From Hymenobacter sp. DG25B (GTDB lineage: Bacteria; Bacteroidota; Bacteroidia; Cytophagales; Hymenobacteraceae), in NCBI RefSeq assembly GCF_000801315.1, contig NZ_CP010054.1, forward strand, positions 62,001 to 126,000: a stretch of DNA of 64,000 nt. Direction: 5' to 3'. Positions 7,502-14,765 of this stretch are shown piece by piece. The notes beneath the pieces are model-generated. The model had not been told where the DNA came from. It did no database searches and worked only from the letters and a program-made list of their open reading frames with translations. A program made the translations under genes and the position numbers. Numbering within the stretch: position 1 is the stretch's first letter; each line of letters begins with the position of its first letter.

Positions 7502-9697
7502 TTACTGGGCCGAGGCGGCCGCCTGCTCCGGCTTCACTTTGATATCGGTACCCAGGCGCTGCAGGTAAGCAATGAGGGCCACAATTTCCTTGTCCGATTT
7601 CACTTCGATTTGCTCTTTCTTCAGCTCCTGCACAATGCCGTCGGCCTGGCGGCGGGCATCGGCCACAGCCTGCTTGTCGTAGCCGGCGGGGTAGGGCGTG
7701 CCCAGGCCCTGGAGTACCCGAATTTTCTTAGGCAGCGTGGAGTAGTCAATGTCGTTCTCAAACAGCCAGGGGTAAGGCGGCATGATGGAGCCCGGCGACA
7801 TGCTGGTAGGGTCCAGCATGTGGTTGTAGTGCCAGGAGTGCGGGTACTTGGCGCCCACGCGGTGCAAATCGGGACCGGTGCGCTTGCTGCCCCACAGGAA
7901 GGGACGGTCGTACACAAACTCGCCGGCTTTTGAGTACTCGCCGTAGCGCTCCGTCTCGGAGCGGAAGGGGCGCACCATCTGGGTGTGGCAGTTAGAGCAG
8001 CCTTCCTTGATGTAGATGTCGCGGCCCTGCAATTCCAGGGAGGTGTAAGGCTTCACCGAGGCAATGGTGGGCACGTTCGACTTGATCAGGAACGTGGGAA
8101 TCATCTCCACGGCCCCACCAATACCGATGGCCACGGTAGCCCAAACGGCCATTTGCACGGGGCGGCGCTCAATCCAGCGGTGCCAGTGGCCGGCATCGGC
8201 GTGAGGGTCTTCGGTGGCGGGCAGCAGGGCGGGCGCCTGGGCTTTTTCATCGGCCAGCAGCGAGCCGGCCCGGGCAGTTTTCACCAGGTTGTACAGCATC
8301 AGGAATACGCCGCTCAGGTAGAGCACCCCGCCAATACCGCGCAGGTAGTACATGGGTACAATCTGCAGCACGGTTTCCAGGAAGTTGGGGTACTGCAGCA
8401 TGCCCTCGGCATTGAACTGCTTCCACATCAGGCCCTGGGTAAAGCCGGCCCAGTACATGGGCAGGGCGTAGAACAGGATGCCGATGGTGCCAATGAGGAA
8501 GTGGGTGTTAGCCAGCTTCTTGGAGTACAGGGGCGTGCGGTACAGGCGGGGCCACAGCCAGTAGAGCATGGCAAAGGTGAGGAAGCCGTTCCAGCCCAGA
8601 GCACCCACGTGCACGTGCGCTACAATCCAGTCGGTAAAGTGGGCAATGGCGTTTACGTTTTTCAGGCTGAGCATGGGCCCTTCGAAGGTGGCCATGCCGT
8701 AGGCCGTAATGGCCACTACCAGGAACTTCAGCACGGGCTCTTCGCGCACCTTATCCCAGGCGCCGCGCAGCGTGAGCAAACCGTTGATCATGCCGCCCCA
8801 GCTGGGCGCCAGCAGCATCACGGAGAAAGCCACGCCCAGGCTCTGGGCCCAGTCGGGCAGGGAGGTATACAACAGGTGGTGAGGACCGGCCCAGATGTAA
8901 ATGAAAATCAGCGACCAGAAGTGAATGATAGACAGGCGGTAAGAATACACCGGCCGGCCCGCTGCCTTGGGCAGGAAGTAGTACATCAAACCCAGGTAGG
9001 GCGTGGTCAGGAAGAAGGCCACGGCGTTGTGGCCGTACCACCACTGCACCAGCGCATCCTGCACGCCGGCGTAGGCAGAGTAGCTTTTCATGAAGCTCAC
9101 CGGCACCGCCATAGAGTTCACAATGTGCAGCACCGCTACGGTAATGAACGTGGCAATGTAAAACCAGATACCCACGTACAGGTGCCGCTCGCGCCGCTGG
9201 GCAATGGTGCCGAACATGTTCCAGCCGAACACCACCCACACCAGCGTAATAGCAATATCAATGGGCCACTCCAGCTCGGCGTACTCCTTGCTGGTGGTGA
9301 AGCCCATGGGCAGGGAAATCAGCGCGCTCAGAATAATCAGCTGCCAGCCCCAGAAGTGCAGCTTGCTGAGCTTCTTGGAGTACATGGGCGTTTTGCACAG
9401 GCGCTGCAGCGAATAGTACACGCCCATGAAAATACCGTTGCCCACGAAGGCAAAAATCACGGCATTGGTGTGCAGCGGCCGGATGCGCCCGAACGTGGTG
9501 AACGAGGTGTGCATGTTCACGTCGGGCTGGGCCAGCTGAAACGCCGCCAGGATACCGACCAGCATACCGGCAATGCCCCAGAAGATGGTGGCAATGCCGA
9601 AATCACGAACAATCTTGTTGTCGTAGAAGAACGTCTCGAGGGCCCGCGTGGGTGGTGCCTGCGGCTGGGCTACCTGCGGTTTCGGGTCAACTATCAT
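7502..9697 (-). CDS. ccoNO: CcoNO, fused catalytic and mono-heme subunits of cbb3 cytochrome c oxidase
   Basis: The 731-residue protein joins CcoN (about residues 1-480) to CcoO (about 530-731). The CcoN part has the conserved motifs of the heme-copper oxidase core: WWYGHNAVAFFLT, IYIWAGPHHLLYTSLPDW (copper-ligand His pair and active-site Tyr region) and VAHVHVGALGWNG (heme ligands). The CcoO part carries one heme c motif (EGCSNCHTQMVRPF) and the Met-ligand region SMSPGSIMPPYPWLF. The complex reduces oxygen to water with high affinity and pumps protons. CcoN-CcoO fusions are characteristic of Bacteroidota. The gene is first in its operon and is preceded by an apparent Crp/Fnr-controlled promoter (9731-9802). 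Confidence 0.96.
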   Translation of the reverse strand: MIVDPKPQVAQPQAPPTRALETFFYDNKIVRDFGIATIFWGIAGMLVGILAAFQLAQPDVNMHTSFTTFGRIRPLHTNAVIFAFVGNGIFMGVYYSLQRLCKTPMYSKKLSKLHFWGWQLIILSALISLPMGFTTSKEYAELEWPIDIAITLVWVVFGWNMFGTIAQRRERHLYVGIWFYIATFITVAVLHIVNSMAVPVSFMKSYSAYAGVQDALVQWWYGHNAVAFFLTTPYLGLMYYFLPKAAGRPVYSYRLSIIHFWSLIFIYIWAGPHHLLYTSLPDWAQSLGVAFSVMLLAPSWGGMINGLLTLRGAWDKVREEPVLKFLVVAITAYGMATFEGPMLSLKNVNAIAHFTDWIVAHVHVGALGWNGFLTFAMLYWLWPRLYRTPLYSKKLANTHFLIGTIGILFYALPMYWAGFTQGLMWKQFNAEGMLQYPNFLETVLQIVPMYYLRGIGGVLYLSGVFLMLYNLVKTARAGSLLADEKAQAPALLPATEDPHADAGHWHRWIERRPVQMAVWATVAIGIGGAVEMIPTFLIKSNVPTIASVKPYTSLELQGRDIYIKEGCSNCHTQMVRPFRSETERYGEYSKAGEFVYDRPFLWGSKRTGPDLHRVGAKYPHSWHYNHMLDPTSMSPGSIMPPYPWLFENDIDYSTLPKKIRVLQGLGTPYPAGYDKQAVADARRQADGIVQELKKEQIEVKSDKEIVALIAYLQRLGTDIKVKPEQAAASAQ

Positions 9698-9701
9698 ACA
9701 G

Positions 9702-9750
9702 AAAAGGACCTTTATAGAAGTAGTGGTTTTACTTCTTCAAAGGTCCTTTT
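9702..9750 (-). terminator. Long inverted repeat between the DUF4126 gene and ccoNO (candidate terminator or operator)
   Basis: The outer arms AAAAGGACCTTT (9702-9713) and AAAGGTCCTTTT (9739-9750) pair perfectly over 12 bp. A 2x2 mismatch follows, then a further 7-bp stem (9716-9722 with 9730-9736) and a 7-nt loop. Read on the minus strand it ends in UUUU, so it could stop transcripts arriving from the DUF4126 gene. The presumed ccoNO -7 element (9738-9745) lies in one arm, so an operator role is an alternative. Confidence 0.5.
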
Positions 9751-9802
9751 CAGGGGGCAGGCAAAAGATGACGAAAGTCAGTTGCCGGTCTGATTGATGT
9801 CA
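9731..9802 (-). promoter_or_regulatory. ccoNO promoter with two Crp/Fnr-type boxes
   Basis: Reading on the minus strand toward ccoNO there are two TGA-N6-TCA dyads: TGATTGATGTCA (plus-strand coordinates 9791-9802) and TGACGAAAGTCA (9769-9780), with centres 22 bp apart. They are followed by a TTTTG -33 element (9762-9766) and a GACCTTTG -7 element (9738-9745). The predicted start site is near 9731, placing the proximal box at about -43, a class II activator position. The ccoI promoter at 13208-13279 has the same elements with identical spacing. Confidence 0.72.
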
Positions 9803-9816
9803 GCCCGACAGGCGGA

Positions 9817-10308
9817 TTATTGCCGGGGCTGGTAGTTATGCAGCAGGGATTTGCCGCCGGCCACTACCAGCGCATCCTCAATAAAGCCCGTCCAGGGCTC
9901 CTTGGTGGTGCCGCTGTTATCGGCCAGCTTGCGCAGGGCAAACGCCCCGAAGGTGCCGGCCAGGGCGCCCAGCCCACCCACCGCCGCACCGCGCAATAGC
10001 TTCTGGCGGTTGAGCTTATACAGGGCCGCACCCACCAGCGCGCCGGAAAGCGTGCGGCCCACCACACTCACGGGCTCGGTGCGGTTGGGCATCGTGGGCA
10101 GCTTGTCGCCTACCATTTCGGCCCCGGCCAGGGCTTTCAACCCCGCGGAAACGGCCCCGTTCTGCAGCCAGCTGAATTTAGAGTGCGCCAGCCGCCCCGA
10201 AGGCTGCTCCCGCAACGCGCCGCTCAGCAAGGCCGGCGCCGACATACTCCGCATGCCGGCAATTACGCCCATGCCCATTGTTTTCCAGAAAGCCGAAGAA
10301 GAAGCCAT
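9817..10308 (-). CDS. DUF4126 family membrane protein
   Basis: The 163-residue protein starts MASSSAFWKTMGMGVIAGMR and contains the family pattern SMSAPALLSGAL, ...GDKLPTMPNRTEP..., ALVGAALYKL and GGLGALAGTFGAFALRKL. It has about three to four weakly hydrophobic helices rich in Gly and Ala. DUF4126 proteins are small membrane proteins of unknown function. The gene lies on the same strand between ccoS and ccoNO but has its own flanks: a 289-bp repeat-filled gap upstream, and the Crp/Fnr-type ccoNO promoter plus hairpin downstream. It is therefore probably not part of the oxidase operon. Confidence 0.75.
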   Translation of the reverse strand: MASSSAFWKTMGMGVIAGMRSMSAPALLSGALREQPSGRLAHSKFSWLQNGAVSAGLKALAGAEMVGDKLPTMPNRTEPVSVVGRTLSGALVGAALYKLNRQKLLRGAAVGGLGALAGTFGAFALRKLADNSGTTKEPWTGFIEDALVVAGGKSLLHNYQPRQ

Positions 10309-10597
10309 ACGTATATCCGTTATATCATCAGAAAGTAAGACTGCTGCTTACGGCCATTGGCGGCAGATGGCTGCCTTCAAGTAGCGCGAACTGTAATCCG
10401 AACAGTAGCACGGAAACGGTAGCACGGAAACAGTAGCGCGCTTAGTAGCGCGAAGCTCCGGCTTCGCGTACGAGCAACGCGAGTTCCTACGCGTTGAAAA
10501 TATGTATGCAGACGCCTGCTACTCGCTGCGCTCGTACGCGAAGCCGGAGCTTCGCGCTACTATGTGCGCTACTATGCGGTACGTGCGACTAAACGTG
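10309..10597. other. Repeat-rich intergenic region between ccoS and the DUF4126 gene
   Basis: The 289 bp hold the inverted-repeat element at 10445-10560, flanked by short degenerate copies of the same vocabulary. On the left there are two copies of GTAGCACGGAAAC at 10405-10430 and a lone GTAGCGCGAA at 10381. On the right there are CTACTATG-type fragments up to about 10600. I see no open reading frame of interest and no clear promoter. Confidence 0.6.
10445..10560. repeat. REP-pair (BIME-like) inverted repeat, copy 1 of 3
   Basis: The 116-bp element begins GTAGCGCGAAGCTCCGGCTT and ends with its near-perfect reverse complement. Each arm (about 40 bp) itself folds: CGCGAAGC-TCCG-GCTTCGCG. The two arms differ at only three positions. 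The spacer ends ATGCAGACGCCTGCT, a stretch shared with the other copies. Copies 2 and 3 lie at 42160-42262 and 47057-47171. Confidence 0.85.
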
Positions 10598-10762
10598 CTA
10601 CGGCTTTTGTGGCGGGTCCATGGGTTCGTCCTCGAAGAGCATGCGCACGGAGGGCGTGTAGGTATCGTCGTACTGCTTGGTGCGCACGGCCCACACAAAA
10701 GCCACCAGGAACAGAATGGCCACTATGAGGCTGATGGTGATAAGGCCGAAGATGATTTCCAT
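10598..10762 (-). CDS. ccoS: CcoS, small cbb3 oxidase assembly protein
   Basis: This 54-residue protein is encoded from ATG 10762 to TAG 10598. It has one N-terminal membrane helix (IIFGLITISLIVAILFLVAF, residues 3-22) followed by VWAVRTKQYDDTYTPSVRML and an acidic Pro-rich tail. The helix-then-W/R/K-QYDD-(S/T)P pattern is typical of CcoS, needed for cofactor insertion into cbb3 oxidase. The start lies 6 bp downstream of the ccoI stop, so the two genes are almost certainly co-transcribed. The short length explains why automated gene callers may miss it. Confidence 0.9.
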   Translation of the reverse strand: MEIIFGLITISLIVAILFLVAFVWAVRTKQYDDTYTPSVRMLFEDEPMDPPQKP

Positions 10763-10768
10763 ACAGAA

Positions 10769-13198
10769 TCAGAGGTTGCGCTTGTAGGCCGCGTAGCGAA
10801 CCAGCAGCGTGGAGAAAATGATAACGGTGAGCGAGCTGATGGGCATCAGAATAGCCGAGACAATGGGCGTAAACCGGCCCTGCGTGGCCAGCCCCAAGCC
10901 AATGCCGTTGTAGATAAAGGACAGCACGAACGTGGCCAGCACAATCTGCAGTGAGTCTTGGGTGAAGCGCAGAAACGTGCTGAACTTACCAAAGCTGCCG
11001 GCATCCAGAATGGCGTCGCAGGCGGGGGAGAAATTGCTGAGCGTATCGGTTAGGGCAATGCCGGCGTTGGCCTGGCGCAGGGCCCCGGCATCGTTCAGGC
11101 CATCACCCAGCATAATAACGGTGCGGCCCTGCTGCTGCAGCTCCGCCACGTAGGCCAGCTTATCCTCGGGGCTCTGGCGGAAGCGCAGCTCGGCCTTGGC
11201 TCCGAACAGCTCCCGCAGGCGGGCCCGCTCGGAGTCGTTGTCGCCGGAAAGCACGGCCAGTTGGTAGCGCTGGCCCAGGTCGGCCAGGATTTTGGGTAGG
11301 TCGACGCGGTACACGTTGCGGAAGCGGAAGCAGCCGGTGCGGCCATCGGTCAGGCGCACGTACACCCGGGACTGCAGGGCATCGGTAGTAGTGGCACTGG
11401 CTTTATCGGAGGTCAGCCCCACAAAAGTGGCCGAGCCCACGCGCAGCTCCTGCCCCGCCACGGTGCCGCGCAGACCCTGGCCGGGCGTTTCGCGGAAATC
11501 CGTTACCGGGCCTTCCCCGGCCGGCAGCTCCTCGGCCAGCCGCTGGCTCAGCGGGTGGGTGGATTGGGTTACCAGCGCTGCCAGGGCCTGCCGTTCCGAC
11601 TGGCTTAGCGCGGGGCCTTCGTACTCCACGGCAGAGCGTTTCACGTCTGTGAGCGTGCCGGTTTTATCGAAGACAATAGTATCGGCGCGGCCCAGCACTT
11701 CGGCCACGGCGGAATTTTTGAGGTAGAATTTGCGGCGGCCAAAAACCGTGAGGGCGCTGCCCAGGGCAAAAGGCGTAGCCAACGAAAGGGCGCAGGGGCA
11801 GGCAATAACCAGCACGGAGGTGAAGGCGCGCCACATCATCTGCTGGTCGCGGGGAAACCAATACACAATAGTGCCCAGCGCCAGCAGCAGCGTAACGCCC
11901 ACAAAGTAGCGGCCCACGCGGTTGGCGTAGGTTTCCAGGGTGGCGTGGGTCTGCTTCTGAAAGGTGGGGTTGTTCCAGAGCTGGGTGAGGTAGCCCTGCG
12001 ACACTTCGCGCACCACCTCCAGCTCTACGGCCTCCCCTACCTGCCGGCCGCCGGCGTACACCACCTCCCCGGCCACCTTGGCCACCGGCGCGCTTTCCCC
12101 CGATACAAAGGAATAGTCAATCTGCCCGGTGCCGCGCATCAGCATGGCATCGGCGGGAATAACCTCCTGGTTGCGCACCCGGATGCGGTGCCCCACCTGC
12201 AGCTCCTTCACCGACACCGACTTCTCGCCGGCCGGCGTGAGCAGCGTAACGGCCACGGGGAAGTAGGAAGTAAAGTCCCGGTCGAAGCGCAGGGCGTCGT
12301 AGGTGCGCTGCTGTACCCATTTGCCAATCAGCATGAAAAACACCAGCCCCGTGAAGGAGTCGAAGTAGCCGGGGCCGCGGTGCGTGAGGACTTCGTACAC
12401 GCTTACCGTGAACAGCGAAGTCAGCCCCAGGCTAATGGGAAAATCGAGGTTGATGTAGCGCTGCCGCAGCCCGGCCCAGGCCGAGCGGTAAAAGTCGCGG
12501 GCGCTGAACAGCAGCACCGGCAAACTCAGCAGCAAGCTCAGATAGCCGAAGAAGCGGCCGAACTCCGCCGCCAGCTGGCCCGTGAACGAGAAGTACTCCG
12601 GAAAGGCCAGCAGCATCACGTTGCCAAAGCAGAAAGCCGCCAGCCCCAACTGGTAGTATATGGTACGGTTTACCTGCGCGGCGGGGCCACCCAGCTCGGC
12701 CAGTGTAATCTGCGGCTCATAGCCCAATGAGGCCAACAGCTTCACCACGTTTTTTAGGCTAGTAGCATCGGGCTGGTAGCTCAGGCTGATTTCCTTGCGC
12801 AGAAAGTTTACCCGGGCCTCCGATACGCCGGTATCCAGCTGGTATAAGTGCTCCAGCAGGTAAATGCAGGAAGCGCAGTGCATCTGGGGCAAGGTAAGCG
12901 TGAGGCGGGCCAGCGAGGGGCTGCGGAAACTGAGCAGCTGAGCCTGCACGGCTTCGGAATCCAGATAGTCGAAGCGGCCGGGCAGCTCTACGTCGGCTAC
13001 TTTGCGGCCGGGGTGCTCGTCCAGGGAGTAGTATTGGCAGAGGTTATTGGTCTGCAGCAGCTCGTACACGGCTTTGCAGCCCTGACAGCAGAAGGGCTGC
13101 TCCTGCAGCAGAACAGGTTGCCCGGGGCAGTCGTCGCCGCAGTGGGTGCAGGCTACGTGAACGGTAGTTTCAGAAACGGAAGCGGCCACGGCATTCAA
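10769..13198 (-). CDS. ccoI: CcoI/FixI copper-transporting P1B-type ATPase
   Basis: The 809-residue protein has a Cys-rich N terminus (CTHCGDDC and FCCQGCKAVYELL, residues 19-50), then one HMA metal-binding domain with MHCASC. About eight membrane helices include the CPC ion-binding motif (IACPCALSLATP). The phosphorylation site is VFDKTGTLTD, and GDGLNDAGALRQA is the hinge motif. The protein exports Cu(I) for insertion into the CcoN active site during cbb3 biogenesis. It is co-transcribed with ccoS and has its own promoter (13208-13279) matching that of ccoNO. The oxidase locus is therefore split into two coordinated operons. Confidence 0.95.
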   Translation of the reverse strand: MNAVAASVSETTVHVACTHCGDDCPGQPVLLQEQPFCCQGCKAVYELLQTNNLCQYYSLDEHPGRKVADVELPGRFDYLDSEAVQAQLLSFRSPSLARLTLTLPQMHCASCIYLLEHLYQLDTGVSEARVNFLRKEISLSYQPDATSLKNVVKLLASLGYEPQITLAELGGPAAQVNRTIYYQLGLAAFCFGNVMLLAFPEYFSFTGQLAAEFGRFFGYLSLLLSLPVLLFSARDFYRSAWAGLRQRYINLDFPISLGLTSLFTVSVYEVLTHRGPGYFDSFTGLVFFMLIGKWVQQRTYDALRFDRDFTSYFPVAVTLLTPAGEKSVSVKELQVGHRIRVRNQEVIPADAMLMRGTGQIDYSFVSGESAPVAKVAGEVVYAGGRQVGEAVELEVVREVSQGYLTQLWNNPTFQKQTHATLETYANRVGRYFVGVTLLLALGTIVYWFPRDQQMMWRAFTSVLVIACPCALSLATPFALGSALTVFGRRKFYLKNSAVAEVLGRADTIVFDKTGTLTDVKRSAVEYEGPALSQSERQALAALVTQSTHPLSQRLAEELPAGEGPVTDFRETPGQGLRGTVAGQELRVGSATFVGLTSDKASATTTDALQSRVYVRLTDGRTGCFRFRNVYRVDLPKILADLGQRYQLAVLSGDNDSERARLRELFGAKAELRFRQSPEDKLAYVAELQQQGRTVIMLGDGLNDAGALRQANAGIALTDTLSNFSPACDAILDAGSFGKFSTFLRFTQDSLQIVLATFVLSFIYNGIGLGLATQGRFTPIVSAILMPISSLTVIIFSTLLVRYAAYKRNL

Positions 13199-13207
13199 GG
13201 ACTGATG

Positions 13208-13279
13208 GATTAAGCAAAGGTCCGGCCCCGGGCGGGGGCAAAACCTGAGGAAAGTCAGCTTCCTGGATGACAGTCATCA
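13208..13279 (-). promoter_or_regulatory. ccoI promoter with two Crp/Fnr-type boxes
   Basis: Plus-strand coordinates: TGAGGAAAGTCA at 13246-13257 and TGACAGTCATCA at 13268-13279, both TGA-N6-TCA with centres 22 bp apart. CAAAA at 13239-13243 is the minus-strand TTTTG -33 element. CAAAGGTC at 13215-13222 is the minus-strand GACCTTTG -7 element. Every spacing equals that of the ccoNO promoter. The predicted start is near 13208, ten bases upstream of the ATG at 13198. Confidence 0.72.
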
Positions 13280-13302
13280 GCCCGCCTGCCCGGGCCACGC
13301 CG

Positions 13303-13310
13303 CAATTTTG
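13303..13310 (+). promoter_or_regulatory. Candidate -7 element of the divergent membrane protein/globin promoter
   Basis: CAATTTTG differs from TAnnTTTG at one base. Its last base lies 36.5 bp from the centre of the TGACAGTCATCA box (13268-13279), exactly the box-to--7 distance seen for ccoNO and ccoI. No -33 TTTG is visible, as might be expected of an activator-dependent promoter. Predicted start is near 13317. Confidence 0.45.
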
Positions 13311-13356
13311 AATGGTAAATTCGCGGTCCGTTTCCCTTCCCTGCCTACTTTTTGCT

Positions 13357-13842
13357 ATGCGTTCCTCTCCAAGTACCTTATCCCTGCTGCTCGTGCTGGC
13401 CCTGTTTATGTGGGCGGGCATGGTGCTGGCTATTTCCTTTCTCGAAGCCCCGCTTAAGTTCACGGCCCCGCACATTACGGTGCCGCTGGGGTTAGGCATT
13501 GGCCGCATTGTGTTTCAGGCCCTGAACAAAGTAGAGCTGGCCCTGAGCGTGGTGGCGCTGGTATGTGCCGGGCGGCTGCGGCTGCCTTCTCACATCTGGC
13601 TAACGTTGCTCACGGCCCTGCTGGTGCTGCTGGCCCAAACCCTGTGGCTGCTGCCCGCCCTGGATGTGCGCGCCGAAGCCTTATTAGCCGGCCATCCTGC
13701 CCCTCCCAGTTCGCAGCACGTAGTATATATTATTCTGGAAGTGAGTAAAGTAGCCGCTTTGCTACTCACTGGTGTGCTGGCTTTCCGCCATGCGCAACGC
13801 CAGGCATTTCACTCGCAAGCTCCCGCTGCCCAGCTTGCCTAA
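13357..13842 (+). CDS. Small four-helix membrane protein, function unknown
   Basis: The preferred start is ATG 13357 (MRSSPSTLSLLLVLALFMWA), giving 161 residues. An ATG-less extension to 13312 would begin upstream of the predicted transcription start. Four hydrophobic helices are visible (about residues 8-28, 46-66, 74-95 and 122-142). The first loop has the conserved-looking EAPLKFTAPHITVPLGLGIG. It vaguely resembles DUF4149-type membrane proteins, but I cannot assign it with confidence. It is followed 34 bp later by the first globin gene, and the two probably share a transcript starting in the ccoI-facing intergenic region, hinting at a low-oxygen or NO-related role. Confidence 0.75.
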   Translation: MRSSPSTLSLLLVLALFMWAGMVLAISFLEAPLKFTAPHITVPLGLGIGRIVFQALNKVELALSVVALVCAGRLRLPSHIWLTLLTALLVLLAQTLWLLPALDVRAEALLAGHPAPPSSQHVVYIILEVSKVAALLLTGVLAFRHAQRQAFHSQAPAAQLA

Positions 13843-13875: not shown

Positions 13876-14274
13876 ATGTCTGCCCCCGCCCCGCTTTCTG
13901 ATATTTCCACCGAAGCCGACATCCGTTTACTAGTAGACCGGTTCTACGATAAAGTAAATGCCGATGAGCTGCTCGGCCCCATTTTTAACGAAATAGCCCA
14001 GGTGCATTGGGAAAAGCACCTGCCTATCATGTACGACTTCTGGAGCAGCCTGCTGCTCGGCACCAGCCGCTACCGGGGCCGACCCTTCCCCAAACACCTC
14101 GTTCTGCCCATTGACAGCAAGCACTTTCGCCGCTGGCTTACGCTGTTCACTGAAAATGTAGACGCCCATTTTGCCGGCCCCGTAGCCGATGATGCCATTC
14201 GCAAAGCTGGCAACATTGCTACCATTTTCGAGTATCGTATGGCGCAGGCCCGCAATCCGTTGCAGATTATCTAG
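13876..14274 (+). CDS. Group III truncated hemoglobin
   Basis: The 132-residue protein aligns by eye with the group III (P-type) truncated globins such as Campylobacter Ctb. RFYDKV supplies the B10 Tyr. WEKHLPIMYDFW supplies the E7 His. RPFPKHLVLP contains the proximal F8 His, and HFRRWLTLF holds the G8 Trp. These heme proteins bind O2/NO and are linked to microaerobic physiology and nitrosative stress. It lies 34 bp after the membrane protein gene and 122 bp before a second, divergent paralogue. The divergent ccoI promoter region probably drives this cluster, which would tie it to the cbb3 regulon (inference). Confidence 0.9.
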   Translation: MSAPAPLSDISTEADIRLLVDRFYDKVNADELLGPIFNEIAQVHWEKHLPIMYDFWSSLLLGTSRYRGRPFPKHLVLPIDSKHFRRWLTLFTENVDAHFAGPVADDAIRKAGNIATIFEYRMAQARNPLQII

Positions 14275-14396: not shown

Positions 14397-14765
14397 ATGA
14401 AATCTTCTGCAGCTCTCCACGACATCCGGAACGAAGGCGACATTAAGACGCTGGTAGATACCGCTTTTAGCAAAGCAAATGATGACGAGCTTCTGGCGCC
14501 CTTGTGCCAGGCCGTAGCCCAGATTCACTGGCCCCGCCACCTCACTTCCCTCTATGATTACTGGAGCAGCACCTTGCTGGGCACCACCCGCTACCGGGAA
14601 AACGAGCCTATCCCGCTGCACTCCGTGCTGAATACCCAGGGCACCCGCTCCCAGCGTTGGATTTCCTTGCTGGAACGCACCGTAGAAGAGCAATTCTCCG
14701 GCAGCAAAGCCGAGGAAGCCAAGCACAAGCTGGCCACCCTGTTTTCCCGGGCCCAAACCGCGTAG
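14397..14765 (+). CDS. Second group III truncated hemoglobin, with B10 Tyr replaced by Phe
   Basis: This 122-residue paralogue of the upstream globin keeps the frame IHWPRHLTSLYDYW (E7 His), STLLGTTRYREN, IPLHSVLN (proximal F8 His) and QRWISLLER (G8 Trp). The B10 position reads AFSKAN instead of FYDKVN, so the distal Tyr is Phe, which should remove the hydrogen bond that stabilises bound O2. It starts at ATG 14397, 122 bp after the first globin. A shared terminator-like hairpin follows at 14786. Heme binding still looks possible, but ligand chemistry should differ from the first copy. Confidence 0.85.
   Translation: MKSSAALHDIRNEGDIKTLVDTAFSKANDDELLAPLCQAVAQIHWPRHLTSLYDYWSSTLLGTTRYRENEPIPLHSVLNTQGTRSQRWISLLERTVEEQFSGSKAEEAKHKLATLFSRAQTA

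Follow-up and report, generated by a model that had tools for sequence, protein, structure and literature searches.

Two promoters of genes for cbb3, a respiratory oxidase of high affinity, those of the fused ccoN-ccoO gene and of the ccoI-type gene, were analyzed in a 64 kb stretch of the 4.36 Mb genome of Hymenobacter sp. DG25B (GCF_000801315.1, NZ_CP010054.1:62,001-126,000, forward strand; the whole stretch is called the window in the following). In both, the centres of two TGA-N6-TCA dyads are separated by 22 bp, and 23 nt and a -7 element follow; this layout recurs over much of the Bacteroidota, far beyond the genus. We interpret them, with a probability of roughly 0.7, as low-oxygen promoters of class II type with paired Crp-type sites, the activator being a receiver-Crp fusion protein that works with a FixL-like kinase. 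The finding holds and is larger than a first, sequence-only reading of the window had noted, comprising a layout spread over the phylum, a pair of Crp-type sites which looks obligate, and bidirectional use at ccoI.

In the whole window, the pattern TGA-N6-TCA-N10-TGA-N6-TCA was found exactly only at 9769-9802 and 13246-13279. Both pairs are on the minus strand, one 5′ of fused ccoN-ccoO (COX1 and FixO; 7502..9697, minus strand) and one 5′ of the gene for the ccoI-type copper P-ATPase (10769..13198, minus strand). At ccoN, the distal dyad TGACATCAATCA (9791..9802) and the proximal dyad TGACTTTCGTCA (9769..9780) are followed by TTTTG two bases past the latter (9762..9766) and, 23 nt past it, by the -7 element GACCTTTG (9738..9745), which is one base off TAnnTTTG and would set the start at about 9733. 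At ccoI, the corresponding parts are the distal dyad TGATGACTGTCA (13268..13279), the proximal dyad TGACTTTCCTCA (13246..13257) and GACCTTTG again (13215..13222), with a predicted start at about 13210. The 65-bp blocks of the two promoters can be aligned without gaps, with 44 of 65 bases identical and GACCTTTG at equal offset, which confirms the earlier claim of one architecture for two cbb3 promoters with 22 bp between the dyad centres and a gapless alignment of about 65 bp. The further claim of equal offsets holds for GACCTTTG and TTTTG within the window, but beyond it TTTTG occurs at this offset in only 4 of the 140 distinct sites of the loci collected, to which the site statistics given here refer, and in 3 of the 42 Hymenobacter sites; it was consequently rejected as a shared part of the promoters, also as a -33 element. 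Since TTTTG is not conserved, the stable signature consists of dyad, 22 bp, dyad, 23 nt and -7 element.

For conservation of this geometry, promoters were scored over 18 positions, with the two dyads and TAnnTTTG each kept at a set distance. The ccoN set comprised the best 80 of 592 CcoN relatives with flanks from named genomes plus the window (81 promoters), of which 61 scored at least 15 and 49 at least 16 at the 22/23 geometry. The peak was exactly at this geometry, as the remaining 24 cells of the ±2 grid gave 0 to 5 ccoN loci at a score of at least 16, and 85 distant control geometries gave on average 0.36 loci at 15 or more (maximum 9, reached by one of them) and 0.04 at 16 or more (maximum 1). 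Because the distal dyad was perfect in 60 of the 61 best placements and the proximal one in 30, the upstream dyad is the better conserved of the two. Also, where a strict dyad was located 10-40 nt before a -7 match upstream of ccoN, the gap was exactly 23 nt in 28 of 31 cases, and all 28 carry a full second dyad, 26 of them at 22 bp and two at 23 bp. From the ccoI promoters that could be read (58 loci and the window), 26 of 59 reached 15/18 vs 0 to 3 in ten control geometries. The sequence-only reading had named loss of the motif pair in relatives as a result that would overturn it; the pair proved to be conserved at ccoN and, in a smaller share of promoters, at ccoI.

Genome-wide searches gave the same picture. 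The dyad pair followed by N24-ANNTTTG had 100 matches in 41 of 395 genomes of the phylum, and the same pattern read backwards had none in these 395 genomes, so that the earlier statement that the spacing is unlikely to arise by chance was upheld. A likeness of the two window promoters due to recent duplication or chance, without any function, would agree with their distance of 3.5 kb and the 44 shared bases, but not with spacing conserved across the phylum and the lack of reversed matches; as the layout is conserved, we consider this explanation refuted, with a negligible probability. In 101 genomes of the genus Hymenobacter, searched with one mismatch tolerated and with both strands of a bidirectional pair counted, the box is carried by 89, and the backward control gave two matches in total. 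When the spacer was left free (3 to 33, distal dyad fixed as TGAT, 217 genomes of the class), 118 of the 150 matches listed had a centre distance of 22 bp and 12 one of 23 bp. Among the listed matches, the few at 33 bp (4) and at 44 bp (5) differ from 22 bp by full turns of the helix, which hints at helical phasing. A search of the window's whole genome for the dyad pair returned at least five exact pairs (among 100 of 204 matches listed, with up to two mismatches). Besides the two in the window, one lies in a porin-like/lptB gap, one 5′ of a PEP-synthase-like gene and one past the 3′ end of an FNR-type gene, where names of genes other than cco were assigned by eye. The pairs upstream of the lptB-like (L008) and PEP-synthase-like (L009) genes, at position 1501 of the loci, lack, by eye, a convincing -7 element where one would be expected and are not claimed as members.

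The sites themselves were compared with known activator boxes, the FNR box being TTGAT-N4-ATCAA and the CRP box GTGA-N6-TCAC. At the unfixed positions of the 140 sites, TGA tends to be followed by Y and TCA to be preceded by R; in the flanks, the distal TGA mostly has A or C in front of it, and T is preferred behind the proximal TCA. The distal TGA is preceded by A or C in 76%, by T in 15% and by G in 9%, and the proximal TCA is followed by A in 7% and by C in 3% of the sites, so that they resemble neither the FNR box nor the CRP box in these flanks.

Class II activators are centred at -41.5, and promoters of the Bacteroidota have a -33 TTTG element about 20 nt before the -7 element. In the 7-nt stretch at the TTTTG offset, TTTG was present in 8 of the 140 sites. 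A scan of 9600-13500 for sigma-70 promoters found none. In Flavobacterium psychrophilum, the TAnnTTTG box is located at -12 to -5 (PMC9723704). With the -7 box placed at these positions, the centres of the proximal and distal dyads therefore come to -41.5 and -63.5, respectively, as would be the case at ccoN; the class II fit is conditional on this transfer from F. psychrophilum, and the starts in the window are likewise predicted. The full TA..TTTG was found in 60 of the 140 sites, which had been preselected for A and TTTG, and the window has GACCTTTG and CAATTTTG. In Hymenobacter sites, the first base of the -7 element is usually not T, and TA..TTTG is present in 4 of 42.

The element CAATTTTG was not mentioned in the sequence-only reading. 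It is located at 13303..13310 on the plus strand, at the same 23-nt offset past the other end of the ccoI pair, which is thus flanked by -7 elements on both sides and appears to serve both strands. Thereby, the distal dyad of ccoI would be the proximal (class II) dyad of a divergent gene and the proximal dyad of ccoI its distal one. As the start of the divergent transcript is predicted at about 13315, the ATG at 13357 is a likelier start codon than that at 13312. The gene (13357..13842, plus strand) encodes a small protein without Pfam or NCBIfam match, and by eye its relatives follow boxes in other Hymenobacter loci. Two globin-like genes come after it, the first encoding a bacterial-type globin (13876..14274, plus strand) and possibly belonging to the divergent unit. 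The second (14397-14765) has a product 45% identical to this globin, had no match in Pfam, NCBIfam or PDB, and looks like a diverged globin paralogue. A second -7 element with at least 5/6 was present in 10 of the 26 well-scoring ccoI promoters. Among 169 distinct double dyads, from loci partly picked for having a -7 element, a -7 match was found on one side in 108, on both sides in 13 and on neither in 48, with a random-position background of 0.001.

The regulator had been supposed to lie outside the window, which is consistent with the candidates found elsewhere in the genome, where three Crp/Fnr proteins are above the family cut-off and two further matches are weaker. One of them (L163:3630-4682; G000:C1:1954629-1955678) combines a receiver domain and a Crp module in one fusion protein. 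After the receiver come cNMP_binding and HTH_Crp_2, the cNMP-type barrel and Crp HTH that characterize the FixK/FNR proteins of the Crp superfamily, and with a single Cys in its sequence it has no cysteine cluster of the FNR type. Its gene overlaps by 23 bp with that of a PAS histidine kinase of 574 amino acids. A second protein (L001:1033-1737) is of the FNR type, with the N-terminal cysteine cluster CPECPSRHSCPMSCC and the helix KETTSR. Due to its cysteines and a nearby box, this protein was our first candidate. It would bind the pair directly as an iron-sulfur oxygen sensor, leaving the fusion as a bystander; its FNR-like cysteines and E-xx-SR helix and the double box downstream of its gene speak for such a role, as does the presence of an FNR-type gene close to cco in two loci from Pontibacter (L029, L030).

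For Hymenobacter, co-occurrence in the 101 genus genomes spoke for the fusion. Presence was set by a single E-value (fusion E<1e-60, FNR E<1e-45), with a split fusion (G402) and an FNR with internal stop (G481) taken as present and a partial fusion (G429) as absent; weak FixO matches (G422, G430, G479) were not counted as cco and were excluded from the comparison of cco-less genomes. Genomes with both fusion and FNR (n=49) had 5.57 boxes on average, those with the fusion alone (n=29) 5.93, those with FNR alone (n=15) 1.20, and those lacking both (n=8) 0.12. Box number differed between fusion-only and FNR-only genomes (P=1.2e-5) and, among genomes without cco, between those with (21) and without the fusion (22; P=6.6e-5), both values being uncorrected for relatedness. 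The fusion is present in all 55 genomes with a strong FixO match (ccoNO), and FNR presence had no association with cco (P=0.68). Distances were taken from the best 98 fusion matches and the best 41 FNR matches: the fusion is located at most 25 kb from ccoNO in at least 44 of 55 genomes, FNR in 0 of 36 (among the matches listed). On these grounds, the stand-alone FNR-type protein was dropped as the Hymenobacter activator, as neither boxes nor cco track it in this genus. Moreover, one genome (G387) has kept the ccoN box and a box beside the fusion gene with no stand-alone FNR match, and the preference for A or C before the distal TGA is unlike the FNR box. Control by FNR with the fusion as a bystander thus seems unlikely. 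The activator in Hymenobacter is most likely the receiver-Crp fusion and not the stand-alone FNR, for which co-occurrence and gene neighbourhood are strong arguments. The notion of a Crp/Fnr regulon signature for oxygen or redox sensing was supported, given the conserved layout and the low-oxygen-type targets, but the best candidate is a receiver-Crp fusion instead of a plain Crp/Fnr protein.

At the level of class and phylum, all 41 box-bearing genomes were compared with 39 hand-picked other genomes of the class. The full-length fusion was found in 33 of the 41. Of the other eight, seven encode an FNR-type protein (E≤1.3e-50), a point which also speaks for FNR as activator, and one (G051) has none at 1e-30. 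In these lineages, an FNR-type protein may use the same layout. More generally, both activators and perhaps others could read the same pairs, the layout defining a promoter class with a sensor that is exchangeable by lineage. This overlaps with our own interpretation and fits the box sequences, which are broadly alike in 19 sites from 7 fusion-free genomes and 29 sites from 15 chosen fusion genomes (among them G379 with a weaker single-domain Crp match, 3.1e-31), with more T after each TCA in the fusion-free ones. Several Hymenobacter have a box close to FNR, and FNR-only genomes of the genus have about one box each, which points the same way; box number in Hymenobacter, which follows the fusion and hardly FNR, points the other way. 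We regard such shared reading as possible, though somewhat doubtful.

Further boxes were noticed near other Crp/Fnr genes. In the window's genome (L010:1501-1534) and in five other Hymenobacter (L228, L230, L231, L238, L239), the stand-alone FNR gene has a double box immediately 3′ of it, followed in the latter five by a conserved small protein. This box may be a target of FNR itself. The same small protein follows a box in a genome without FNR (L225, G462). On G000:C3 at about 159341-163068 (L003, L019), open reading frames for RIC-like, DNR-like Crp and NosZ-like proteins (names by eye) are arranged in a row, with a one-mismatch double box in the gap between the first two. The DNR-like protein (L003) is an unlikely general regulator and was discarded; it was found at E≤1e-20 in 1 of the 101 genus genomes, the window's own, and its gene was therefore probably acquired.

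The kinase encoded next to the fusion (L163:1928-3652) has a second PAS domain whose best match among solved structures is FixL (1d06, E 1.1e-10), followed by another PAS kinase and then by the haem oxygen sensor DosP. Of 57 loci examined, 51 encode a relative of this kinase 5′ of the fusion. A His at the position of the FixL haem histidine was found in 45 of the 46 loci with a PAS match, the remaining 11 of 57 having no such match. All 57 have conserved the receiver aspartate. With a haem-type PAS domain bearing the proximal His, followed by HisKA and HATPase, the protein has the make-up of a FixL kinase, so binding of haem and oxygen is plausible. In two loci (L182, L191), the PAS motif is close to that of FixL, GIGR included. 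In another locus (L033, near 1797-1857), a double box with a -7 element stands in front of a FixL-like PAS protein, which suggests feedback.

Several observations weigh against control by the fusion and its kinase. Scores below 15/18 were obtained for 20 of 81 ccoN and 33 of 59 ccoI promoters. In the window's genome, the fusion gene is located 1.9 Mb from cco, and the kinase PAS lacks the distal arginine of FixL at the aligned place. The box is missing from two fusion-only Hymenobacter (G398, G480), and two FNR-only ones (G456, G399) have 4 and 3 boxes. The genus statistics ignore phylogeny, and one E-value cut-off sets presence. The fusion also occurs in 16 of the 39 box-free class genomes compared, and the box is not fusion-specific, because seven of the eight fusion-free box genomes carry an FNR-type protein. 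Finally, binding, phosphotransfer, haem and start sites are all predictions.

Candidate targets were obtained from 117 distinct sites of the collected loci by naming the first gene after each by eye and not by family searches. Most frequent were ccoN (31, partly from the choice of loci) and ccoI (20), followed by UspA-like genes (8), an unknown family of 151 amino acids (7), and ccoG, HemN-like genes and relatives of the window's divergent gene (4 each). Minor groups and single cases comprised YceI-like, 2-hydroxyacid-dehydrogenase-like, HemA-like, ferrochelatase-like, NosZ-like, hemerythrin-like and FixL-like genes and many unnamed ones. On this by-eye reading, the recognizable targets form what appears to be a typical low-oxygen regulon.

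Two further features of the window were noted. An inverted repeat of 22 nt (9701-9722 / 9730-9751, 91% complementary, 7-nt loop) spans the -7 element of ccoN together with its leader. The leader was considered as the site of a conserved RNA hairpin, but the few leaders of relatives that were folded gave disagreeing structures. At 10440-10560, GTAGCGCGAAGCTCCGGCTTCGCGTACGAGC is present in inverted copies and looks REP-like by eye.

In F. psychrophilum, oxygen limitation led to strong induction of cbb3 and raised levels of haem-synthesis enzymes (PMC9723704), and neither 'Crp' nor 'Fnr' was found in the main text of this paper. Crp/Fnr homologues of Flavobacteriales and Saprospiraceae have been assigned to carbon sensing (PMC8510549), FixLJ and FixK/FnrN of alphaproteobacteria have been described (PMC4999443), and nothing pertinent was found in PMC9239204. 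A literature search, with most subscription journals outside its scope, found no account of a cbb3 regulator in Bacteroidota; by title and start of the abstract, no report was found of this promoter layout, or of a receiver-Crp fusion paired with a FixL-type kinase, in the phylum. Oxygen control of the cbb3 oxidase in Bacteroidota thus seems to be little described, and a precise signature together with a named pair of kinase and regulator makes the question of the regulator testable.

The promoters probably work as Crp/Fnr class II promoters for low oxygen, adapted to the polymerase of the Bacteroidota. Two dimers of a Crp-type activator would bind side by side, the 22 bp between their centres being close to two turns of the helix. 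At -41.5, the downstream dimer would contact polymerase at the -7 element, with little or no need for a -33 element, and the upstream dimer at -63.5 would serve as the better conserved anchor, possibly with cooperative binding. At ccoI, the pair would drive both strands, each dyad acting as class II site for one gene. The adjacent FixL-like kinase would phosphorylate the fusion when bound oxygen is lost, so that FixL, FixJ and FixK would be condensed into two proteins. More tentatively, and rather less probable than our basic interpretation, much of the Bacteroidota might possess such a one-step FixLJK system in which the fusion is active only as two abutting dimers; their contact, perhaps via the receivers, would fix the 22 bp and permit the divergent class II pair, and stand-alone FNR would have taken over in some lineages with the layout unchanged. 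From the exact spacing and the use in both directions, one would learn how activators of the Crp type function together with a TAnnTTTG-reading polymerase, and sensor exchange over one conserved promoter layout would, if true, be a clean case of regulatory evolution.

Among known systems, the class II promoters of FNR and CRP in Escherichia coli have a TGA-N6-TCA core centred at -41.5 and the -10 element TATAAT. The core and the predicted centre at -41.5 are alike here, whereas conservation here is stronger in the second dyad, 22 bp upstream, A or C precedes the distal TGA, and TAnnTTTG is the partner. With the primary-sigma promoter of the Bacteroidota (TAnnTTTG; PMC9723704) the layout shares a -7 element at a fixed place, but the first base is mostly not T in Hymenobacter and a -33 TTTG is not required. 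A further related system is the oxygen cascade FixL-FixJ-FixK of the alphaproteobacteria, to which the PAS kinase with FixL as closest match among solved structures, a response regulator and a Crp-type activator, and the cbb3 targets correspond. FixJ consists of a receiver and a LuxR-type output. The fusion is without LuxR-type output, and here receiver and Crp output are one protein, which would act on paired boxes in another phylum and with another -7 element.

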